From assembly GCA_016218705.1 (NCBI GenBank), contig JACRDC010000036.1, positions 1 through 64,000 of the forward strand: a stretch of DNA of 64,000 bases, written 5' to 3'. This stretch comes from Desulfarculus sp. GTDB taxonomy: Bacteria > Desulfobacterota > Desulfarculia > Desulfarculales > Desulfarculaceae. Both the position numbers and the translations under genes were made by a program. The notes beneath the pieces were generated by a model. That model worked only from the letters and a program-made list of their open reading frames with translations. It did not search any database and had not been told where the DNA came from. Below are positions 50,091 through 64,000 of the stretch, in pieces. How positions within the stretch are numbered: position 1 is the stretch's first letter; every line of letters begins with the position of its first letter.

Positions 50091-50891
50091 ATGTGGCGCC
50101 GTATCGCCAACGACCTCAACCCGCCCCGCCCCGGCCAGCCCAGGCAACCCGGGGCCGCGCCGGCTGGCGGGCCGGGCGGGGTGGCCGCGCCCCAGGCCGC
50201 CGGCCTCAAGGTGTCGCGCTACACCTTCTGCCAGCACGGCCAGTGCCCAAAGAGCGCCGCCCTGGCCGCCAACCTGCGCCGCGAGGCCGCCCGCCAGGGC
50301 CTGGCCCTGGAGCTGGCCCCGGCCCTGACCCTCTGCCAAGGCGCCTGCCAGGACGGACCCTTCCTGGGCCTGCCCCAACTGGACCTGTTCTACGCCGGCG
50401 TCACCCCCTCCGAAGCCGGCGCCCTGCTGGCCGAGACTTCCTTGGCCGGGCGCCTGGTCTTCCGGCGCCTGTATTTGGACCCCACGGTGGTGACCGACAG
50501 CCGCGTCATCTTCGAGCGCCACCAAGGCACCCTGGTGGCCATGGAGGCCGGCTACTGCCTGGTGGGCTTGGTCACTTATCTTTTTGAGTTCAACGCCGCC
50601 GAAAGCTGCGGCAAGTGCTACCCCTGCCGCTTGGGCGTGCACCTCATCCACCGCCTGCTGCGGGGCATCCTGGCCGGCCAGGGCGGCGAGGCCGGCCTGG
50701 AGCGCCTGGTCCAGGCCACCCGAGCCCTGGCCCAGGCCGGCTACTGCCAGTTTGGCGAGCGCATAACCGAGCCCCTGCGTTTGGCGCTGGGCATGGCCCG
50801 GCCCGTGTTCCAGCGCCACCTGGACCAGGGCGGCTGCGCGGCTGGCGAGCGCCACCTCTGGCCGGCCAGCCCCGGGGAGAGCGCGCAATGA
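50091..50891 (+). CDS. Minimal NuoE/NuoF hybrid lacking the FMN domain
   Basis: 266 residues. After a Pro/Gly-rich leader (1-38), a thioredoxin-like [2Fe-2S] ferredoxin domain has all four ligands (Cys47, Cys52, Cys82, Cys86 in TFCQHGQC and LCQGACQDGPF), as in the C-terminal half of NuoE or the N terminus of HoxF-type NuoF. After a short linker, ESCGKCYPCRLG (171-182) with a fourth Cys at about 219 is the NuoF C-terminal N3 cluster domain. The NADH/FMN-binding Rossmann region (GRGGxGFPxGxKW) and SLBB domain of NuoF, about 280 residues, are absent. So electrons could pass through its clusters but it cannot oxidise NADH. It is translationally coupled to the NuoG/GltD fusion, which supplies another flavin site. 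Confidence 0.85.
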   Translation: MWRRIANDLNPPRPGQPRQPGAAPAGGPGGVAAPQAAGLKVSRYTFCQHGQCPKSAALAANLRREAARQGLALELAPALTLCQGACQDGPFLGLPQLDLFYAGVTPSEAGALLAETSLAGRLVFRRLYLDPTVVTDSRVIFERHQGTLVAMEAGYCLVGLVTYLFEFNAAESCGKCYPCRLGVHLIHRLLRGILAGQGGEAGLERLVQATRALAQAGYCQFGERITEPLRLALGMARPVFQRHLDQGGCAAGERHLWPASPGESAQ

Positions 50892-53800
50892 GCCAGCAGG
50901 GCATCGAGCTGACCATCAACGGCCAAATGGTGCGGGCCGCCCCGGGGCAGAGCGTCTTGCAGGCCGCGGCCCTGGCGGGCTTGCGCCTGCCCATGATGTG
51001 CTTCAACCGCCTCTTGCCCGCCGAGGAGGCCTGCCGCCTGTGCATCGTGGAGGTGGAGGGGCAGCCGCGCCCGCTGGCGGCCTGCGCCACGCCGGTGACG
51101 CCGGGTTTACGGGTGCGCACCGACAGCCCCGCCTTGCGGGAGCAGCGCCAGGCCATCTTCCGGCTCCTCTTGGACGACCACTACGGCGACTGCCTGGCCC
51201 CTTGCAGCCAGCGCTGCCCGGCGAACATAGACATCCAGGGTTACATCGCCCTGGTGGCCCGGGGCCAATTCCTGGAGGCCACCCGGCTGATCCGCCAGAC
51301 CAACCCCCTGCCGCTGACCTGCGGCCGGGTCTGCCCCCATCCCTGCGAGGCCCAGTGCCGGCGGGGCCGCGTGGACCAGCCCATCGCCATCAACCACCTC
51401 AAGCGCCTGGCCAGCGACATTGCCTACCAGGAGATCGAGCGCCTCAACCCCGCCCCGGCCAGCCCCAGCGGTTTGTGGGTGGCCCTGGTGGGCGGCGGCC
51501 CGGCCAGCCTGAGCGCCGCCTATTTCCTGGCGCTCTTGGGGCACTCGCCGGTGATCTTCGAGGCCATGCCCAAGCTGGGCGGCATGCTGCGCTACGGCAT
51601 CCCCCAGTACCGCCTGCCCAAGGAGGTGCTGGACCGCGAGATCGAGGCCGTCCTGCGCCTGGGCGTGCAGGCCCGCACCGGCCTGGCCTGGGGCCGGGAC
51701 TTCACCCTGCAAGGTCTGCTCGACCAGGGCTTCGCGGCCCTGTTCCTGGGCATCGGGGCCTGGATCAACTCGCGCATGGGCCTGGAGGGCGAGGACGCCC
51801 AGGGGGTCTGGCCGGGCACGGGCTTCCTCAACCAGGTGGCCCTGGGCGGGGTTACCAGCCTGGCCGGCCAGCGGGTGGCGGTGATCGGCGGCGGCAACAC
51901 GGCCATGGACTGCGCCCGCAGCGCCCTGCGTTTGGGCGCCGCCGGCGTCACCATCTACTACCGCCGCTCGCGCCAGGAGATGCCGGCCCAGGCCTTGGAG
52001 GTGGACGAGGCCCAACGCGAGGGCGTGGTATTGGAGATGTGCACGGCGCCAGCGGCCCTGCTGACCAGCGGGGGCCGGCTGGAGGGCATGATCCTCCAGG
52101 CCATGGAGCTGTGCGAACTGGACGCCTCGGGCCGCGCCCAGCCCCGCCCCCTGGCCGGCTCCGAGCGGCGGGTGGACCTGGACTGCCTCATGGTGGCCAT
52201 CGGCCAGCAGCCTGACCTGGGCCTGTTCAAGCAAGACGCCCTGGCCAGCGGCCTGGAGCTGCGCAAGGGGCGCGCCGTGCAGGGGGCCTACCTCACCGGG
52301 GCCACCAACCTGGAGCGCGTCTTCGTGGGCGGCGACCTGGTCAGCGGCCCGGCCACGGTGGTGGAGGCCATCGGCGCCGGCCGCCGGGCGGCCCAGGCCA
52401 TGGACCGCTGGCTGCGCGGCCGGCCCCTGGAGCCGGCGCGGCACTTCACCTTCTCCCGGGGCACCCTGCACGAGGTGGACCAGGGCTTCTTCGAGGGGCG
52501 CGTGCTGGCCCCCCGGGCGCCCATGCCCGAGCTGGGGCCGGGCATGCGGGCGGGCAACTTCGCCGAGGTGGAGCTGGGCCTGAGCGAGGAGGCCGGCCGG
52601 GCCGAGGCCCTGCGCTGCCTGTCCTGTGGGTGCATGGCCTTTGCCGAGTGCCGCATCCGCCAGGTGGGCGACCTCATCGGCCTGCGCGAGCTGGTCACAG
52701 GGGCGAGCCCCAGCCAGGGGCACGGCCTCATGGAGGACCATCCCCACATCGTGGTGGACGACAACAAGTGCGTGGTCTGCCGCGCCTGCCAGCGGGCCTG
52801 CCAGCACTACCACGGACGCGACGCCGTGCAGGTGCAGGTGGAGCGCGTGGGCGACCTGGCCCAGGAGCGCCCCCACCGCACGCGCTTCAACGAGCGCTGC
52901 GACCATTGCGGCCTGTGCCTGGCCCTGTGCCCCACCGGGGCCCTGAGCCACAAGACCCCTTATGCCAAGCCGGGGCCTTTCCCCCTGGTCTGGGCCGAGT
53001 CCCACTGCGGGCTCTGCGCCGTGGGCTGCGGCCTGCGCCTGGGCAAGGTGGGCGAGCACGTGGCCCGGGTGGACGGCGCCGCCGGGGCGCCCAACTTCGG
53101 CCACCTGTGCGTCCGGGGCCGCTTCGAGTTGATCGAGCTGGCCCACGGCCCGGGCCGCCTGCGCGCTCCCCTGCTGCGTGCCCATGGCCAGGCGCGGCCC
53201 GCCTCCTGGGAAGAGGCCCTGGCCGAGACGGTGGGGCGGTTCCAGCGCCTCAGGCAGGCCCACGGGCCGGAGAGCCTGGCGGTGCTCTGCCTGGGCCAGG
53301 CCACCCTGGAGGAGCTGTACCTGCTGGGCAAGCTGGCCCGCCTGGGCCTGGGCAACAACCACATGGCCCTGCTGGACCCGGCCCGCGCAGATCAACCCGC
53401 CGGCCTGCCAGGCCTGCCGGCCCCGCCGCCCTACGAGGAGATCGAGGGCCTCGAAATGGTGGCCCTGGTGGGCGGTGGGCTGGCGCGGGCCTATCGCTTG
53501 TTGGAGCCGGCCCTGCACCGTCTGCGGGCCAAGGGCGGGCAAGTGCTCCTAGCCGCCCCGGCTGATGATGGCTTGGCCGGCCAGGCCGACCTGCGCCTGG
53601 ATTTGGCGCCAGCCCCAGCCCTGGAGATGCTGGCCGATCTGGCCCAGGGCCGGGGACAGGCCAGCCTCGCCGCCGAGATGTGGGCTACCGCCAATTCCAG
53701 GCTGGTGCTGGTGGGCGAGGTCTGCCTGGGGCCGCCGGCCCTGGAGGCCTGGCGTCGGCTGGTGGCGGCCCTGGCCGGCCAGGCGGGCGCGCGCCTGGGG

Positions 53801-54334
53801 GTGCTGCCGGCCCTGGCCGCCGGCCCGGCGGCGCGGGCTGCCGGCTTTGGCCCGGCCTGCCTGCCCGGCGGGCGGCCACTGTCTCCCTTCGGCTGGGCGG
53901 CCCTGGAGCGGACTTGGGGAGCTTCCCTGCCCCATGACCCGGGCCTGGACGGCGCCGGCATCTTGGCCGCCGCCCAGGCGGGGCGCCTCAAGGGCCTGTT
54001 GGTCCTGGGCGCGCCCCTGGCCCCGGGGGAGGATGTGGCCCCGGGACTGCTGGAGGCCGCCGCAAAGGTGGAGTTCCTGGCCTTGCTGACCAGCCAGGAG
54101 GGCGCCCTCTGCCGCCTGGCCCACGTGGCCCTGCCCCGGCTGTTGGAGATGGAAAAGGACGGCACCCTGCTGGACGCCGCCGGCCGCAGGCAGGCCCTGG
54201 CCGTGGCCGCGCGGCCCGCCCCGGGGATGCGCCCCGAGTTGGAGGTTCTGGCCGCTTTGCTGCAAGGACTCGCCGGGCAGAGTCAAGCCAGCCAGCCCCG
54301 GCAGGTGCGGGCCGAGTTGGAGGGGTTGATCTAG
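50888..54334 (+). CDS. nuoG: NuoG fused to a GltD-like FAD/NAD(P) oxidoreductase
   Basis: 1148 residues from ATG 50888 (ATGA overlap). 1-80: [2Fe-2S] ferredoxin with Cys38, 49, 52, 66. 95-185: the Cys-rich N-terminal domain of GltD/dihydropyrimidine-dehydrogenase type (CSQRCPANIDIQGYI; CGRVCPHPCEAQCRRG). 195-560: two dinucleotide-binding folds, FAD (VALVGGGPASLSAAY) and NAD(P) (VAVIGGGNTAMDCARSAL), with FVGGDLVSGPATVVEAIGAG near the end. 575-590: extra Cys motif CLSCGCMAFAEC. About 620-700: two [4Fe-4S] motifs (CVVCRACQRACQ; CDHCGLCLALCPTG). About 705-745: molybdopterin-type [4Fe-4S] motif (HCGLCAVGCGLRLG). The rest is a degenerate molybdopterin oxidoreductase fold without a metal ligand, as in NuoG. 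The GltD unit probably replaces the missing NuoF as NAD(P)H site; direction and donor are inference. Confidence 0.87.
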   Translation: MSQQGIELTINGQMVRAAPGQSVLQAAALAGLRLPMMCFNRLLPAEEACRLCIVEVEGQPRPLAACATPVTPGLRVRTDSPALREQRQAIFRLLLDDHYGDCLAPCSQRCPANIDIQGYIALVARGQFLEATRLIRQTNPLPLTCGRVCPHPCEAQCRRGRVDQPIAINHLKRLASDIAYQEIERLNPAPASPSGLWVALVGGGPASLSAAYFLALLGHSPVIFEAMPKLGGMLRYGIPQYRLPKEVLDREIEAVLRLGVQARTGLAWGRDFTLQGLLDQGFAALFLGIGAWINSRMGLEGEDAQGVWPGTGFLNQVALGGVTSLAGQRVAVIGGGNTAMDCARSALRLGAAGVTIYYRRSRQEMPAQALEVDEAQREGVVLEMCTAPAALLTSGGRLEGMILQAMELCELDASGRAQPRPLAGSERRVDLDCLMVAIGQQPDLGLFKQDALASGLELRKGRAVQGAYLTGATNLERVFVGGDLVSGPATVVEAIGAGRRAAQAMDRWLRGRPLEPARHFTFSRGTLHEVDQGFFEGRVLAPRAPMPELGPGMRAGNFAEVELGLSEEAGRAEALRCLSCGCMAFAECRIRQVGDLIGLRELVTGASPSQGHGLMEDHPHIVVDDNKCVVCRACQRACQHYHGRDAVQVQVERVGDLAQERPHRTRFNERCDHCGLCLALCPTGALSHKTPYAKPGPFPLVWAESHCGLCAVGCGLRLGKVGEHVARVDGAAGAPNFGHLCVRGRFELIELAHGPGRLRAPLLRAHGQARPASWEEALAETVGRFQRLRQAHGPESLAVLCLGQATLEELYLLGKLARLGLGNNHMALLDPARADQPAGLPGLPAPPPYEEIEGLEMVALVGGGLARAYRLLEPALHRLRAKGGQVLLAAPADDGLAGQADLRLDLAPAPALEMLADLAQGRGQASLAAEMWATANSRLVLVGEVCLGPPALEAWRRLVAALAGQAGARLGVLPALAAGPAARAAGFGPACLPGGRPLSPFGWAALERTWGASLPHDPGLDGAGILAAAQAGRLKGLLVLGAPLAPGEDVAPGLLEAAAKVEFLALLTSQEGALCRLAHVALPRLLEMEKDGTLLDAAGRRQALAVAARPAPGMRPELEVLAALLQGLAGQSQASQPRQVRAELEGLI

Positions 54335-57379: not shown

Positions 57380-58240
57380 ATGACCCAGCCAGACCAGCAT
57401 CCCCCGCGCCCCCGCCTGAGCCGGGCCGGCCTTACGCCGGTGCATCAGGTGGAGGTGCTGGACCACCTGGGCCAGCCCCGGCAGGTGGCCATCCCCGGGG
57501 AATCGCCCCTGACCATCAAGGTGGATGGCCGCGAAATCGTCACCCTCATGACCCTGGGCACCAACCCCGAGGAACTGGCCCTGGGCTACCTGCACAACCA
57601 GCGCCTGCTGGAGCGCATCGAGGAGGTGGAGTCCGTGAGCGTGGACTGGCCGCGGGAGACGGCCAACGTGACCACCCGGCATGGGCAAGGCATCGCCAAC
57701 CTGGAGGAGAAGCTCTCCCGAGTCACCGTGACCAGCGGCTGCGGCCAGGGGACCCTGTTCAGTTGCACCGTGGACAAGCTCTACGAGCGCAAGCTGCCCC
57801 GGGTGACGGTGCGCCAGTCGGTCATCTATGGATTGCTCAAGGCCGTGGCCCACCTCAACCCCATCTACCGCCTGGCCGGCTCGGTGCACGTCTGCTGCCT
57901 GTGCCAGGGGGAGCGGGTGGTCATGTCGGTGGAGGACGTGGGGCGCCACAACGCCGCCGATACCATCGCCGGCCGCATGTGGCTGGACGGCCTGCCCGGT
58001 GAGGACAAGATACTCTTCACCACCGGCCGCCTGACCTCGGAGATCATGATGAAGGCGGCCTTCATGGGTATACCGGTGCTTATCTCCAAGTCCGGCGTGA
58101 CCCACATGAGCCTGGAACTGGCCCGGGACATGGGCATGTTGGTCATCGGCCGGGCCCGCGCCGCCAGCTTCATCGTCTTCAACGGCGGGGAGCGGGTGAT
58201 CTTCGACGCCGTGGCCAAAGCAAACCCGGCCAAGGGGTGA
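57380..58240 (+). CDS. fdhD: Formate dehydrogenase accessory sulfurtransferase FdhD
   Basis: 286 residues. EVLDHLGQPRQVAIPGESPLTIKVDGREIVTLMTLGTNPEELALGYL and SVEDVGRHNAADTIAGRMW are FdhD landmarks, with TTGRLTSEIMMKAA and GIPVLISKSGVTHMSLELA towards the C terminus. FdhD passes sulphur from IscS to the molybdenum/tungsten-bisMGD cofactor of formate dehydrogenase. The usual CxxC loop appears here as SGCGQGTLFSC, so one Cys is in place and the second is displaced. A formate dehydrogenase should exist elsewhere in the genome; none is inside the window. Confidence 0.95.
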   Translation: MTQPDQHPPRPRLSRAGLTPVHQVEVLDHLGQPRQVAIPGESPLTIKVDGREIVTLMTLGTNPEELALGYLHNQRLLERIEEVESVSVDWPRETANVTTRHGQGIANLEEKLSRVTVTSGCGQGTLFSCTVDKLYERKLPRVTVRQSVIYGLLKAVAHLNPIYRLAGSVHVCCLCQGERVVMSVEDVGRHNAADTIAGRMWLDGLPGEDKILFTTGRLTSEIMMKAAFMGIPVLISKSGVTHMSLELARDMGMLVIGRARAASFIVFNGGERVIFDAVAKANPAKG

Positions 58241-58277: not shown

Positions 58278-58895
58278 CTATGCCTTGGGCTGGGCGGGCT
58301 CCTTCTCCAGCAGATGACCAGCCAGGGCCCGGGTGAGCACATAGGCCGCCTGGAGCGCCTCGGTGGGGCAGAGGGGGAAGCACTCCTTGCAGTCCCAGCA
58401 CTCCTTCAGGGCGATCTCGGGCACGAAACTTATCTCTTTTCTGATCCCCCGGTCAATGAAGCCCACGGCGTTCTTCTTCTTCACCTCGGCGCAGTAGCGC
58501 ACGCACAGACCGCAGTGGATGCAGAAGGAGGCCTCTTTCTCGAAGCGGTCCTTGTCGGCGCCGTACTCCTTGGCCAGGTCCTGCAAATCAAAGGCGTCGG
58601 GGGCGTGGGCCAGCAAGAGCTCCAGGATGGTCTTGCGGATCCTGTCCACCTTGGCCGACCTGGTGTGGACCACCAGGTTGTTCTCGGCGGGATAGACGCA
58701 GGAAACCACCAGCCTGCTCCAGCCCTTTTCCTCCAGCTCCACGATGCACAGCCGGCAGCCGCCGAAAGGCTCCAGCTTTTCGTGATGGCAGATGGTGGGG
58801 ATGTGGATGCCCGCTGCCTGGGCGGCCTCCAGGAGGGTCATGCCATCGCTGGCCTTGACCTCCCTGCCATCTATGGTCAGGCGGATTTCGCTCAT
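58278..58895 (-). CDS. HoxU-like ferredoxin subunit of an NADH-linked complex
   Basis: 205 residues. 1-80: [2Fe-2S] domain with CHHEKLEPFGGCRLC and a fourth Cys in VVSCVYP. 80-120: His/Cys-poor linker. 125-180: two [4Fe-4S] motifs (CIHCGLCVRYC; CWDCKECFPLCPTEAL). This is the layout of the small diaphorase subunit HoxU and of the N terminus of NuoG. Last gene of the leftward HdrA operon, 5 bp after nuoF, so it probably bridges NuoF to HdrA/MvhD. Confidence 0.88.
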   Translation of the reverse strand: MSEIRLTIDGREVKASDGMTLLEAAQAAGIHIPTICHHEKLEPFGGCRLCIVELEEKGWSRLVVSCVYPAENNLVVHTRSAKVDRIRKTILELLLAHAPDAFDLQDLAKEYGADKDRFEKEASFCIHCGLCVRYCAEVKKKNAVGFIDRGIRKEISFVPEIALKECWDCKECFPLCPTEALQAAYVLTRALAGHLLEKEPAQPKA

Positions 58896-58900
58896 CGCTG

Positions 58901-60820
58901 CTAGCTCTTTCTAGAAATGACTCGTTTGTCCTCGGGGATGGGGGCCGGCACCGGCTCGCCGGACAACTTGGTGACCGCCGAGAATTTCTGCGGGCAGACC
59001 TCGAAGCAGGTGCCGCACTTGGTGCACTTTTCCTGGTCCACGATGTGAATCTTGCCCTTGCCCCCCTCGATGGCCCCCGCCGGGCACTTGCGGCCGCAGA
59101 TCATGCAGGCCTGGCACTTGGCGGGGTCAATGTAGAAGGACACCAGCTCCTTGCAGGACAGGGCCGGGCACCTCTTGTGCTTGATGTGGGCCTCGTACTC
59201 GTCGCGGAAGTAGCGCAGGGTGCTGAGGAAGGGGTTGGGCGCGCTCTTGCCCAGGGCGCACAGGGCCGCCTCCTTGGCCGTCTCGGACAGGTCCTCCAGC
59301 AGCTCGATATCGCCTTCCTTGCCCTGGCCGGTGGTGATGTTGGTCAGCAGCTTGAGCATCTGGCGCAGGCCCTCGCGGCAGGGCACGCACTTGCCGCAGG
59401 ACTCGTCGGTGAGGAACTGGATGAAGTACCTGGCCACGTCCACCATGCAGGTGCTTTCGTCCAATACGATCATGCCGCCGGAGCCCATCATGGAGCCGGC
59501 CTTGGTCAACTCGTCGAAGCCCACCGGCAGGTCCAACAGGTCCTCGGGTATGCAGCCCCCGGAAGGCCCGCCCGTCTGCACGGCCTTGAATTTCTTGCCG
59601 CCGGGGATGCCGCCGCCGATCTTGTAGATGATGTCGCGCAGGCTCATGCCCATGGGCACCTCGACCAGGCCGGTGTTGGTGATCTTGCCCACCACCGAGA
59701 ATATCTTGGTGCCCTTGCTCTTTTCGGTGCCGAACTGGGTGAACCAGTCGGCGCCCTTGTTGATAATCAGCGGCACGTTGGCCCAGGTTTCCACGTTGTT
59801 GAGGACGCTGGGCTTTTCCCAAAGACCCTTGATGTTGGAGCGCACGTACTTGGGCCTGGGCTCGCCCACGCGGCCCTCCAGGGAGGTCATCAGGGCGGTG
59901 GACTCGCCGCAGACAAAGGCGCCGGCGCCCTGGTGCACCTTGACCGTGAAGTCAAACCCCGAGCCAAGGATGTTCTTGCCCAGGAAGCCGTACTCCTCGG
60001 CCTTCTTGATGGCGATGTTCACGTTCTCCACGGCCAGGGGATACTCTTGACGCACGTAGATGTAGCCTTCGTGGGACCCTATGGCGAAGGCGCCCAGGGT
60101 CAGGCCTTCGAGTATGGAGTGCGGGTTGCCCTCCAACAGACTGCGGTCCATGTAGGCGCCAGGGTCGCCTTCGTCGGCGTTGACGATGACGTACTTAATG
60201 GGCTCGGGGGCGTTGCGCGAGCCCTCCCACTTCCGGCCGGCGGGGAAGCCACCGCCGCCCCTGCCGCGCAGGTTGGACTTTTTTATCTCTTCCAACACAT
60301 CCACGGGGCTCATGTGGTGGAGGGCCTTTGACAGGGCGGCATAGCCGCCTATGGCCAAATAATCTTCTATGTTCTTGGGGTCAATGTTGCCATTGGAGCC
60401 AAAAACCAGGCGCTCTTGATATTTATAAAAAGGTATCTCGGATTCGCGGATTATCTTTTCCTTGGTGCTGGGGTCGGTATACAGCAGGCGGTCTATTATC
60501 TTGTTGCCGATTATGGTTTCCGAGATGATCTCCGGGACGTCCTTGGGCTCAATCTGGAAGTAGCAAATCTCCTCGGGGTGGATGACGATAATCGGGCCGC
60601 GCTCGCAAAAACCATGGCACCCGGTCTTCCTGACCTCCACCTTGCCGGCCAGGCCTTGTTTTTGTATCTCTTCCTCGATGGCCAGGGCCACCGCGCCACT
60701 TCCCGTGGCATGACAAGCCGACCCCGAGCAAATGGTGATACAGGTCTTGTTTGGGTCTCTTTTTGATAGGATCGCTTCTCGAAGCGCTTCTAATTCGGCT
60801 GGTGATTTAACAAGAGGCAT
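58901..60820 (-). CDS. nuoF: NuoF/HoxF-type NADH-oxidising flavoprotein subunit
   Basis: 639 residues. 30-115: thioredoxin-like [2Fe-2S] domain (CSGSACHATGS; KTGCHGFCERGP). 150-390: FMN/NADH domain with GRGGGGFPAGRKWEG, NADEGDPGAYMDRSLLEGNPH and CGESTALMTSLEG. SLBB domain (about 395-440). ESCGKCVPCREG and a distal Cys form the N3 cluster. 555-625: two more [4Fe-4S] motifs (CQACMICGRKCPAGAI; CTKCGTCFEVCPQ). This long form with terminal ferredoxins occurs in electron-bifurcating hydrogenases and HdrA-linked NADH modules. Everything missing from the complex I gene at 50091-50891 is present here. Confidence 0.93.
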   Translation of the reverse strand: MPLVKSPAELEALREAILSKRDPNKTCITICSGSACHATGSGAVALAIEEEIQKQGLAGKVEVRKTGCHGFCERGPIIVIHPEEICYFQIEPKDVPEIISETIIGNKIIDRLLYTDPSTKEKIIRESEIPFYKYQERLVFGSNGNIDPKNIEDYLAIGGYAALSKALHHMSPVDVLEEIKKSNLRGRGGGGFPAGRKWEGSRNAPEPIKYVIVNADEGDPGAYMDRSLLEGNPHSILEGLTLGAFAIGSHEGYIYVRQEYPLAVENVNIAIKKAEEYGFLGKNILGSGFDFTVKVHQGAGAFVCGESTALMTSLEGRVGEPRPKYVRSNIKGLWEKPSVLNNVETWANVPLIINKGADWFTQFGTEKSKGTKIFSVVGKITNTGLVEVPMGMSLRDIIYKIGGGIPGGKKFKAVQTGGPSGGCIPEDLLDLPVGFDELTKAGSMMGSGGMIVLDESTCMVDVARYFIQFLTDESCGKCVPCREGLRQMLKLLTNITTGQGKEGDIELLEDLSETAKEAALCALGKSAPNPFLSTLRYFRDEYEAHIKHKRCPALSCKELVSFYIDPAKCQACMICGRKCPAGAIEGGKGKIHIVDQEKCTKCGTCFEVCPQKFSAVTKLSGEPVPAPIPEDKRVISRKS

Positions 60821-60829
60821 TGTGTTCCC

Positions 60830-61282
60830 CTACTCATAGCTCTGTAAGACGTTCTTGGTTTCAACCGGGGTCATCTTGCCATAGGTTTTACCGTCAATCT
60901 CCAGCACTGGCCCCAAGGCGCAACAGCCCAGGCAGTTGACGGTTTCCAGGCTGAATTTCAGCTCCAGGTCCGTTTCACCAGGTTTGATTCCGGTCAGGTC
61001 CTGCACGGCATCCAGGACCCTGGTGGCCCCTCGGACATGGCAGGCCGTGCCCATGCAGATGTGGACCTCGTGGCGCCCCTTGGGTACCAGGCTGAAGGCC
61101 TTGTAGAAGGTGGAGATGTGGTGGACCCTGGTCAGGGGCACCTGGAGCTCCTGGCTGATCCTCTCCATGACTTCCTTGGGCAGCCAACTGTTTTCACTTT
61201 GAATTTCCAGCAATATCTGGATAAGTGAGCTGGCCTCGCCATGGTGCTTGGCAATGATCTCGTCAACCCTGGTCAAATCCAT
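60830..61282 (-). CDS. nuoE: NuoE-type thioredoxin-like [2Fe-2S] subunit
   Basis: 150 residues. An N-terminal helical bundle (LTRVDEIIAKHHGEASSLIQILLEIQSENSWLPKEV), then the four-Cys [2Fe-2S] site: CMGTACHVRGA and CLGCCALGPV. Standard length. It precedes nuoF by 9 bp in the HdrA operon. Confidence 0.94.
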   Translation of the reverse strand: MDLTRVDEIIAKHHGEASSLIQILLEIQSENSWLPKEVMERISQELQVPLTRVHHISTFYKAFSLVPKGRHEVHICMGTACHVRGATRVLDAVQDLTGIKPGETDLELKFSLETVNCLGCCALGPVLEIDGKTYGKMTPVETKNVLQSYE

Positions 61283-61328: not shown

Positions 61329-62096
61329 TCAGGCCAAATGGAAGCGCTTTTCAGCGCTGTCATAAGCCACCAGCCCGTGCATCGAGGATACGTTCATGTA
61401 GTTGGACACCTCGGATGGCTTCAGGCTCAGCTTCTCGGCGATCTCGCCCGTGGAGAGGGGGCTCTCCTTCAAGAGCAGCATTATCTGGGCCATGGCCAGC
61501 TTCTCGACGATAAGCTGGTCGAACAGGGTGCGCATTTCCCCGGAGCCGTAGAACTTCCTGTACTTTTCCTCGGACTTTTCCGGCAGGCGCAGTCTTTCTC
61601 TCTCCACCAGGCGCAGGTAGGGCACCAGCTTCTTGGCCGCCTCCAGCTTGAGCCTCATGAGGCCGATGTCAAGGCCCTCGCCCTTGCCCAGGGGGCCCAG
61701 CTCTCTTATGGTCTTGGCAAAGGAGTTGATGGACTCGGCCAGCAGAATGCCGTCGCTGGCGTTCATGAACTGAATTCGCAGCCGCTCGGGGTTGACCCCG
61801 ATCTGGGTGAGGATCATCTTGGCCAACAGCGTGTTGCCCAGGGCGTCGAAATTGCCGTGGGTGACATAGTTGCACTCGCCCAGCCGGCACCCCCCGATGA
61901 AGACGCCGTCCTGGCCGTTGGCAAAGGCCCTCAGGATGAATTCCAAGTCAACCCTACCCGAGCACATGACCCGGATGAGCCGCATTTCATTTGAATATTG
62001 TAGTCTGGAAACTCCAGCCAAATCTGCCGCGCCGTACGCTCACCAATGGCAGACAAAACCCAGGAGCCTAGGCTTGTGCGCGATGTTTGCCGTCAT
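61329..62096 (-). CDS. mvhD: MvhD/FlxD-family electron-transfer subunit with probable selenocysteine (TGA at 62040-62042)
   Basis: 255 residues if the in-frame TGA at codon 19 is read as selenocysteine. From ATG 62096 the frame gives KPRLLGFVCHW-TGA-AYGAADLAGVSRLQ, and homologues have Cys at the TGA position (CNWCxYxxADLAG), a [2Fe-2S] ligand. The downstream part is typical MvhD: IRVMCSGRVDLEFILRAFANGQDGVFIGGCRLGECNY. Starting after the TGA would delete the first ligand pair. A compact hairpin follows the TGA at a SECIS-like distance (62005-62017). Extra C-terminal residues (about 165-255) end in a winged-helix-like region (STGEIAEKLSLKPSEVSNYMNVSSMHGLV), unusual for MvhD. It passes electrons between NuoEF/HoxU-like and HdrA. 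AAGGCGG precedes the ATG. Confidence 0.8.
62000..62022 (-). promoter_or_regulatory. Candidate bacterial SECIS hairpin
   Basis: On the mRNA, CUGGA-GUU-UCCAG (62017-62005) forms a 5-bp stem with a G-U-U loop whose G is the 28th base after the UGA. Bacterial SECIS elements have a short stem with G and U in the apical loop at roughly this distance. The lower stem is weak, so this is a candidate only. Confidence 0.5.
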
Positions 62097-62139: not shown

Positions 62140-64000
62140 CTAAAGCGCTAGGACGCCGGGACCCGGAGCCGCGTCTATTTGGCTTTCGATCTCTTCATCG
62201 GTGAAGTGCTTGAGGTAGATGGCCCCGGTGGGGCACTTGGTGTTGCACAGCCCGTCGCCCTTGCACAGGATGGGGTTGACCCTGGCCTTCCTGCCCTGGG
62301 GGGTCTGGTGGAACTCGATGGCGTTGTAGGTGCACGCGGTGATGCAGGCCCCGCAGGAGACGCAGTTGTTTTCCAGCACCTCGCACACCGCGCCCGAGGC
62401 CACCACGGTGTCCTTGGACAGCAGGGTGAGGACCCGACCGGCGGCGCCATAGGCCTGGCTGATGGATTCGGCGATGGTCTTGGGATATTGGGCCATGCCG
62501 CAGAGGTACATGCCATCTATGGAGAACTCGACGGGCTTGAGCTTGGCGTGGGCCTCCTTGAAGAAGCCGTCGGGGTTCAGGGTGACCTTGAACAGGCCGG
62601 CGACCTCCTGGGTGGATTCGGCGGGAATGATGGCCGCCGACAAGACCAGGAGGTCGGCGTCAATGCCCAGCTCCATGCCCAGGATCTGGTCCCGCACCCC
62701 TACCTTGACCGGGCCGCCCTCGCCCTCGTCGCCCAATTCCACCGTGGGCTTGCCGTCCACGTCGTAGCGGATGAACTTGACGTCTTGGTTGGAGGCCTCG
62801 CGGTAGTAGTCCTCGCTGAAGCCGTAGGTGCGCATGTCGCGGAACAGCACATGGATGTCCGCGCCGGGGTTGACCTCCTTGAGCTTGAGCGCGTTCTTTA
62901 TGGCGTGGCCGCAGCAGATGCGCGCGCAGTAGTTGCGGTCCTCCTGCCGGCAGCCCACGCACTGGATCATCACCACGGTCTGGGCGGCCAGCACGGCCTC
63001 GTCCTGGGCGCTGATCTTTTCTTCCAGCTCCAACTGGGTCATCACGCGGCCGCTTTGCCCATACAGGTATTCCGTGGGCTTGTACTCGGCGGCCCCCGTG
63101 GCGATGACGCCGGCCCCGTGCTTGATCTCGCTCAGGCCCTTCTCGGACCTGACGGTGGTGACGAAGTTGCCCACGTAACCCGCCACGTCCAGGATGGTGG
63201 CCTCGTGGTAGACCTTTATCCGCGGGTCTTGGTACACCGCCTTGATGGTGTCCCGCACGAATTTTTGCACGTCCATGCCATCCAGGGCATGGCTGATGCG
63301 CCGCGCGTTGCCTCCCAGGGTCTTTTCCTTCTCGAGCAGGTGGACCTCGCACCCCTGCTGGGCGATGGACAGCGCGCAGGTCATGCCCGCCACGCCGCCT
63401 CCCACCACCAGGGCCGTCTTGTTCACCGGCAGGTCGAATTCCTGCAAGGGCGCCAGGAGGCAGGACCTGGCCACGGACATCCTCACTATGTCCTTGGCCT
63501 TGTCGGTGGCCTCCTCTTTTTCCTTGGAGTGCACCCAGGAGTTGTGCTCCCGGATGTTGGCCATCTCAAAGTAGTATTGGTTCAGGCCCGCCTCCAGCAG
63601 CGTGTCGCGGAACAAGGGCTCCAGGGTCCGGGGCGAGCAGGCGGCCACCACCACGCGGTTGAGCCCCCTTTCCTTGATTATCTCCGAGATCTGCATGGCC
63701 GAGTTGGTGGCGCAGGAGAACAACTGCTCCTGGGCGTAGACCACGTTGGGCAGGGTCAGGGCATAGTCCACCACCGAGGGGACGTTAACCACGCTGCCGA
63801 TGTTGGCGCCGCAGTGGCAGACGAAGACGCCCACCCTGGGCTCCTCGCCCGCCACGTCGCGCTCGGGGGGATAAACCCGGGCCTCGCTGAGCTGGCCCCT
63901 GCGGTAGCTGAGCTGTTGGCCGCACTGGGCCCCGGCGCCGCTGGCGGAGAAAACCGACTCCGGGATGTCGGTGGGCCCCTGGAAACCGCCGCTGACGTAG
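62140..64000 (-). CDS. hdrA: Heterodisulfide-reductase-like subunit A, 5' end outside window
   Basis: 619 residues visible; the frame stays open to the window edge, and the segment upstream of the GTG at 63855 (DIPESVFSASGAGAQCG..., VYPPERDV) reads as HdrA family, so the gene continues outside. Visible parts: VGVFVCHCGANIG, the FAD-binding motif ALVVGGGVAGMTCALSIAQQG, a Cys-rich cluster region (CVGCRQEDRNYCARICC), and two C-terminal [4Fe-4S] motifs (CVSCGACITACTYNAI; CKGDGLCNTKCPTGAI). HdrA holds the bifurcating FAD. With MvhD, NuoE, NuoF and a HoxU-like subunit it should couple NADH, ferredoxin and a third acceptor. HdrB/C are not in the window. Confidence 0.9.
   Translation of the reverse strand, partial: YVSGGFQGPTDIPESVFSASGAGAQCGQQLSYRRGQLSEARVYPPERDVAGEEPRVGVFVCHCGANIGSVVNVPSVVDYALTLPNVVYAQEQLFSCATNSAMQISEIIKERGLNRVVVAACSPRTLEPLFRDTLLEAGLNQYYFEMANIREHNSWVHSKEKEEATDKAKDIVRMSVARSCLLAPLQEFDLPVNKTALVVGGGVAGMTCALSIAQQGCEVHLLEKEKTLGGNARRISHALDGMDVQKFVRDTIKAVYQDPRIKVYHEATILDVAGYVGNFVTTVRSEKGLSEIKHGAGVIATGAAEYKPTEYLYGQSGRVMTQLELEEKISAQDEAVLAAQTVVMIQCVGCRQEDRNYCARICCGHAIKNALKLKEVNPGADIHVLFRDMRTYGFSEDYYREASNQDVKFIRYDVDGKPTVELGDEGEGGPVKVGVRDQILGMELGIDADLLVLSAAIIPAESTQEVAGLFKVTLNPDGFFKEAHAKLKPVEFSIDGMYLCGMAQYPKTIAESISQAYGAAGRVLTLLSKDTVVASGAVCEVLENNCVSCGACITACTYNAIEFHQTPQGRKARVNPILCKGDGLCNTKCPTGAIYLKHFTDEEIESQIDAAPGPGVLAL

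Follow-up and report, generated by a model that had tools for sequence, protein, structure and literature searches.

In-frame UGA predicted to specify selenocysteine in bamF from a Desulfarculus sp. operon for class II benzoyl-CoA reductase

The window (the whole 64,000-nucleotide stretch of Desulfarculus sp. DNA that was analyzed) contains a minus-strand gene that, we conclude with high confidence, is bamF, encoding an electron-transfer subunit of class II (tungsten) benzoyl-CoA reductase, with an in-frame UGA decoded as selenocysteine (Sec) at residue 19 via a hairpin just 3' of the codon. The stop codon inside bamF is very probably read as Sec, as the original prediction of a probable selenoprotein had it: Sec machinery, TGA-bearing paralogues and homologues, and a SECIS-like hairpin concur. 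The features are listed below in operon order; the operon was read past the window end on the contig, with bamB, bamC, bamD and the start of bamE outside the window.

Contig 69053-67005, minus strand: bamB; 1271 bits to 4Z3W_A.
Contig 67047-66460, minus strand: bamC; 277 bits to 4Z3W_E.
Contig 66456-65275, minus strand: bamD; CCG/HdrD-like, with CCG and 4Fe-4S domains.
62140-64000, running past the window, minus strand: 3' part of bamE, HdrA-like, with its own TGA at contig 65022-65020.
61329-62096, minus strand: bamF; MvhD/FlpD-family subunit of 255 residues; residue 19 is predicted to be Sec, and the C-terminal region includes a winged helix (translation, PF02662, homologues).
62040-62042, minus strand: TGA codon 19 of bamF, predicted Sec in CHWU (TGA in 67 loci, TGC/TGT in 7).
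62001-62020, minus strand: predicted bacterial SECIS hairpin UGG-CUGGA-GUU-UCCAG-a-CUA (synonymous diversity, pair counts, rare codons).
61695-62063, minus strand: FlpD/MvhD domain of BamF (PF02662; structure-model matches).
61395-61490, minus strand: C-terminal winged-helix (ArsR-like) segment of BamF, residues 203-234 (PF01022; weak fold matches).
60830-61282, minus strand: bamG, NuoE-like [2Fe-2S] subunit (PF01257, 168 bits).
58901-60820, minus strand: bamH, NuoF-like FMN/Fe-S subunit (PF01512, PF10589).
58278-58895, minus strand: bamI, ferredoxin subunit like the NuoG N terminus (PF13510 and NuoG/HydA6 matches).

Direct reading of the minus strand confirms that the frame passes through the TGA into an MvhD N terminus with its own ATG. 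From the ATG at 62096-62094, preceded by a purine-rich stretch that is a plausible ribosome-binding site, it runs through KPRLLGFVCHW to the TGA at 62042-62040, continues as AYGAADLAGVSRLQY and ends at the TGA at 61331-61329; the 255-residue product is the translation with the internal TGA taken as a residue. The reading frame of bamF itself ends in TGA, which speaks against wholesale reassignment of this codon. The internal TGA stands at the second Cys of a CxxC motif (CHWU), a placement first proposed by likeness to CNWC and borne out by the solved MvhD chains, which have CNWC.

The mechanical table-11 ORF begins at TTG 62021 and therefore yields a truncated BamF without C16 and residue 19. 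Automatic annotation is thus likely to truncate BamF; the earlier expectation that it would lose these two residues holds, with the start at codon 26 and not at codon 28. Although this shorter, TTG-start protein is what a standard ORF listing returns, we consider it extremely improbable that translation really stops at the TGA and that a protein starts at TTG 62021 or later. Such a protein would be missing the first beta strand together with two invariant ligands; among the homologues, the codons 5' of the TGA show conservation at the protein level; and a true stop predicts no selection on the hairpin, which is under selection (see below). For genes of this kind, table-11 ORF calling drops cluster ligands.

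Membership of the MvhD family, claimed from the start, is evident in the extended translation, where PF02662 scores 148 bits over residues 12-134 (cut-off 22.3); this FlpD domain is the one that characterizes Sec-containing MvhD/FrhD selenoproteins. C16, residue 19 (Sec or Cys), C45, C70 and C75 are invariant in the homologue alignment. The AlphaFold model (mean pLDDT 88) resembles MvhD chains 5odh_D, 5odc_D, 7bkb_F and 8rvu_F over about 135 residues. The C terminus matches PF01022 weakly but above threshold (23.3 bits, cut-off 22) and, in fold comparison, weakly resembles ArsR/IclR/MarR regulators; a winged helix is thus attached to an electron-transfer subunit, an arrangement kept in NuoE/NuoF-linked relatives. 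That BamF doubles as a redox-sensing regulator, in which the state of the Sec cluster controls DNA binding by the winged helix and thereby governs how strongly the aromatic-degradation genes are expressed, is very unlikely.

Codon 19 is TGA in 67 homologous loci (bamF included) spread over many Desulfobacterota, and TGC or TGT in 7 homologues. The TGA loci come from family, class, phylum and GTDB scans and include the near duplicates L047/L099, L050/L104 and L096/L097. A TGA thus aligns with a conserved Cys in several genomes, and Cys homologues exist, as is characteristic of Sec-containing MvhD/FrhD proteins; the occurrence of Cys in some homologues (L051, L052, L055) indicates that Sec is not obligatory. 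A single base separates TGC or TGT from TGA, and the draft assembly is split into 126 contigs, so that a Cys codon mutated by sequencing error or in a pseudogene might be suspected. That reading is refuted, its probability being negligible, since genomes assembled independently of one another share the TGA at this codon, 67 loci in all; the frame is also intact on either side of the TGA, and the hairpin is under codon-level selection. The pattern that had been named as telling against a selenoprotein, a TGA found only here with frameshifts nearby, was not seen among these loci.

The genome has 15 MvhD-like matches, and in four of them besides bamF a TGA stands in place of a conserved Cys codon. 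In some the TGA falls in the first motif (CRYU, CNAU), and in the paralogues at G000:C1:35681-36082(-) and G000:C80:4138-4527(-) it falls at another conserved Cys (SGUHPGDC, GUHLGEC); Sec positions therefore differ between paralogues. A further candidate, at C3:2834, was rejected: its TGA is an ordinary stop and the motif reads CTYC.

The hairpin that had been noted about 28 bases beyond the TGA is present, with its conserved loop G (62012) 28 nt past the UGA. Its core, CUGGA-GUU-UCCAG, spans 62017-62005, and three further pairs form around a bulged A (62020-62001), so that inspection of the region 3' of the TGA yields a SECIS-like stem-loop of 5+3 bp in the right position, with a small, G-bearing apical loop (GUU). 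The hairpin is under selection. Synonymous diversity in codons 27-34 is 0.146 (median 0.548), the lowest within codons 9-130, where no other separate window falls below 0.48; Cys homologues vary in codon choice for the same residues. The hairpin is largely composed of the operon's rarest codons (share per amino acid: GCT 1.6%, GGA 1.9%, GTT 6.4%, AGA 3.6%, CTA 2.0%). Its near-invariant 14-mer, GCTGGAGTTTCCAG, is exact in 63 of the 67 TGA loci and has one match only in the whole window, which makes it a ready tag for mending the annotation of such genes. Paired cells amount to 96.9%, falling to 26-50% when the partner is slid by one to three bases, and one compensatory change (U-A to G-C) occurs in L047/L099.

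Folding energy of the bamF hairpin is unexceptional (minimum-free-energy z-scores of -0.1 to -1.05), and an Rfam scan of 58-64 kb returned chance matches only and no SECIS family. Covariation is weak, with about 25 of 500 shuffles reaching the observed score, and insufficient alone; this is because the hairpin hardly varies. Its significance stems from conservation, codon choice and position, not from energy alone.

The organism is able to make Sec. Its genome (4.2 Mb, 126 contigs, 99% complete) encodes SelA (610 bits), SelB (368 bits) and SelD (364 bits), together with a tRNA-Sec with anticodon UCA (70 bits), so that the set of Sec-decoding genes sought in the genome is complete. The selD gene itself contains one in-frame TGA, close to the start of the protein (ARAAGU). 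A tRNA-Cys(GCA) of the selC* type, with an 8-bp acceptor stem and a long variable arm, lies at L010:1501-1597 (G000:C1:54779-54875), flanked by an mvhD and an hdrA that are both of the Cys type; this tRNA class has been reviewed (PMC7609411). Since tRNA-Sec-like selC* tRNA-Cys species have been proposed to read UGA as Cys in some deltaproteobacteria, the presence of one beside another mvhD might suggest that bamF encodes Cys at codon 19. However, selC* decoding is recognized by a UCA anticodon and a second selB*, and here the anticodon is GCA, which cannot read UGA, and only one SelB scores above the cut-off. The adjoining mvhD and hdrA use Cys codons, and the normal tRNA-Sec(UCA) is present. 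A suppressor tRNA-Cys of this kind is ruled out by its anticodon, and we regard Cys insertion at the bamF UGA as very improbable.

The neighboring bamE, which is HdrA-like, contains a TGA of its own, in frame, at contig 65022-65020 (C117; L110), 1 kb past the window end, in the context TNDCSMUILSPKLVEVGRH (a CxxU motif). This TGA recurs in sixteen loci of relatives and in one paralogue in the genome (C94), and a CUGGUCG-AGGU-CGGCCGG hairpin lies 3' of it in nearly all of them. Here the hairpin covaries: 98.4% of cells are paired, with three two-sided changes, and none of 500 shuffles matches the covariation score. With its own conserved TGA and covarying SECIS, BamE joins BamF, so that two subunits are predicted to carry Sec. 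The paralogue (L030:4126 on G000:C94) is an HdrA with an in-frame TGA reading CSIU ILGPK, and the selenoproteome of this genome looks large.

The original prediction placed the gene in a hydrogenase/Hdr setting, which gives way to a benzoyl-CoA reductase encoded by a bamBCDEFGHI operon. BamB and BamC score much higher against the solved Geobacter metallireducens subunits than against any aldehyde oxidoreductase (AOR); the best AOR match of BamB is 219 bits. The locus thus combines the BamB-type AOR subunit and BamC polyferredoxin of class II enzymes with a predicted bamDEFGHI operon in the order CCG/HdrD-like, HdrA-like, MvhD, NuoE, NuoF and NuoG-N; the HdrA-MvhD-NuoE-NuoF order is retained in HTH-type relatives. 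BamA (TIGR03200) is encoded elsewhere in the genome (513 bits, above cut-off). Benzoyl-CoA as the substrate and tungsten as the cofactor are predictions from sequence. HdrA-MvhD modules serve many complexes, and relatives have fusions of MvhD to ferredoxin that share this Sec and this hairpin; the Sec protein could accordingly belong to another HdrA-MvhD-NuoEF electron-bifurcating oxidoreductase. This is unlikely, given the bamB and bamC genes upstream in the same operon, with their very high scores to solved benzoyl-CoA reductase subunits, and BamA in the genome. The window also encodes a 1239-residue ORF (50615-54334, plus strand) with 2Fe-2S, pyridine-nucleotide oxidoreductase and molybdopterin oxidoreductase domains, with FdhD nearby (57380-58240).

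We envisage that SelB carrying Sec-tRNA(UCA) would bind the bamF hairpin, which begins about 20 nt 3' of the UGA, and that Sec would be placed at residue 19, where the cluster-ligand motif CxxU ends; actual insertion is inferred. Residue 19 may ligate or adjoin an Fe-S cluster, where Sec could tune or speed a redox step. The position of MvhD within HdrABC-MvhAGD is established by structure 5ODC. By analogy, BamF should connect BamE with the partner module BamGHI, and would relay electrons between this NuoEFG-like module and the flavin subunit BamE, from which they may reach BamB for ring reduction. The Bam complex is roughly 1 MDa and is believed to bifurcate electrons from ferredoxin to the BamB tungsten site, the high-potential branch leading to NAD or menaquinone (PMC12096430).

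Selenium at two CxxU sites, in BamE and BamF, is suggested for the electron-transfer core of the ring-opening enzyme in many strict anaerobes; anaerobic aromatic breakdown should therefore depend on selenium supply. The Sec-MvhD family is known, as is the presence of selenium in class II benzoyl-CoA reductase, so that BamF adds one more, well-supported member to an established selenoprotein family. Selenocysteine was reportedly found by Huwiler in 2019 in the 1-MDa Bam complex of G. metallireducens, and selenoproteins in anaerobic benzoate metabolism are said to have been described by Peters in 2004.

Sec-FrhD/MvhD has been a recognized bacterial selenoprotein family since 2006, when 19 cases of Sec-FrhD/MvhD/VhuD were counted, eight of them in Syntrophobacter fumaroxidans; Desulfobacterium autotrophicum has Sec in mvhD1, 2, 3 and 5 (PMC1794560, PMC2702500, PMC13188914). 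BamF shares the fold (PF02662), CxxU motif and taxonomic range of this family; however, its members are 130-residue hydrogenase subunits or ferredoxin fusions, whereas BamF comes from an operon for benzoyl-CoA reductase and carries a winged helix in its C-terminal part. In Desulfococcus multivorans, five Sec genes include mvhD (dmul_C28840/50) and bamE (dmul_C24500/10) at separate loci, with bamF unnamed; the UGA and SECIS reported for its bamE (PMC5109826) agree with the TGA in bamE here. G. metallireducens has the same bamBCDEFGHI order (PMC1924859, PMC12016498), and its BamF, Gmet_2083, annotated as 'hydrogenase, delta subunit; HTH' (PMC1924859), is likened to ours by operon order and annotation. 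The present operon differs in that Sec is predicted for BamE as well as for BamF.
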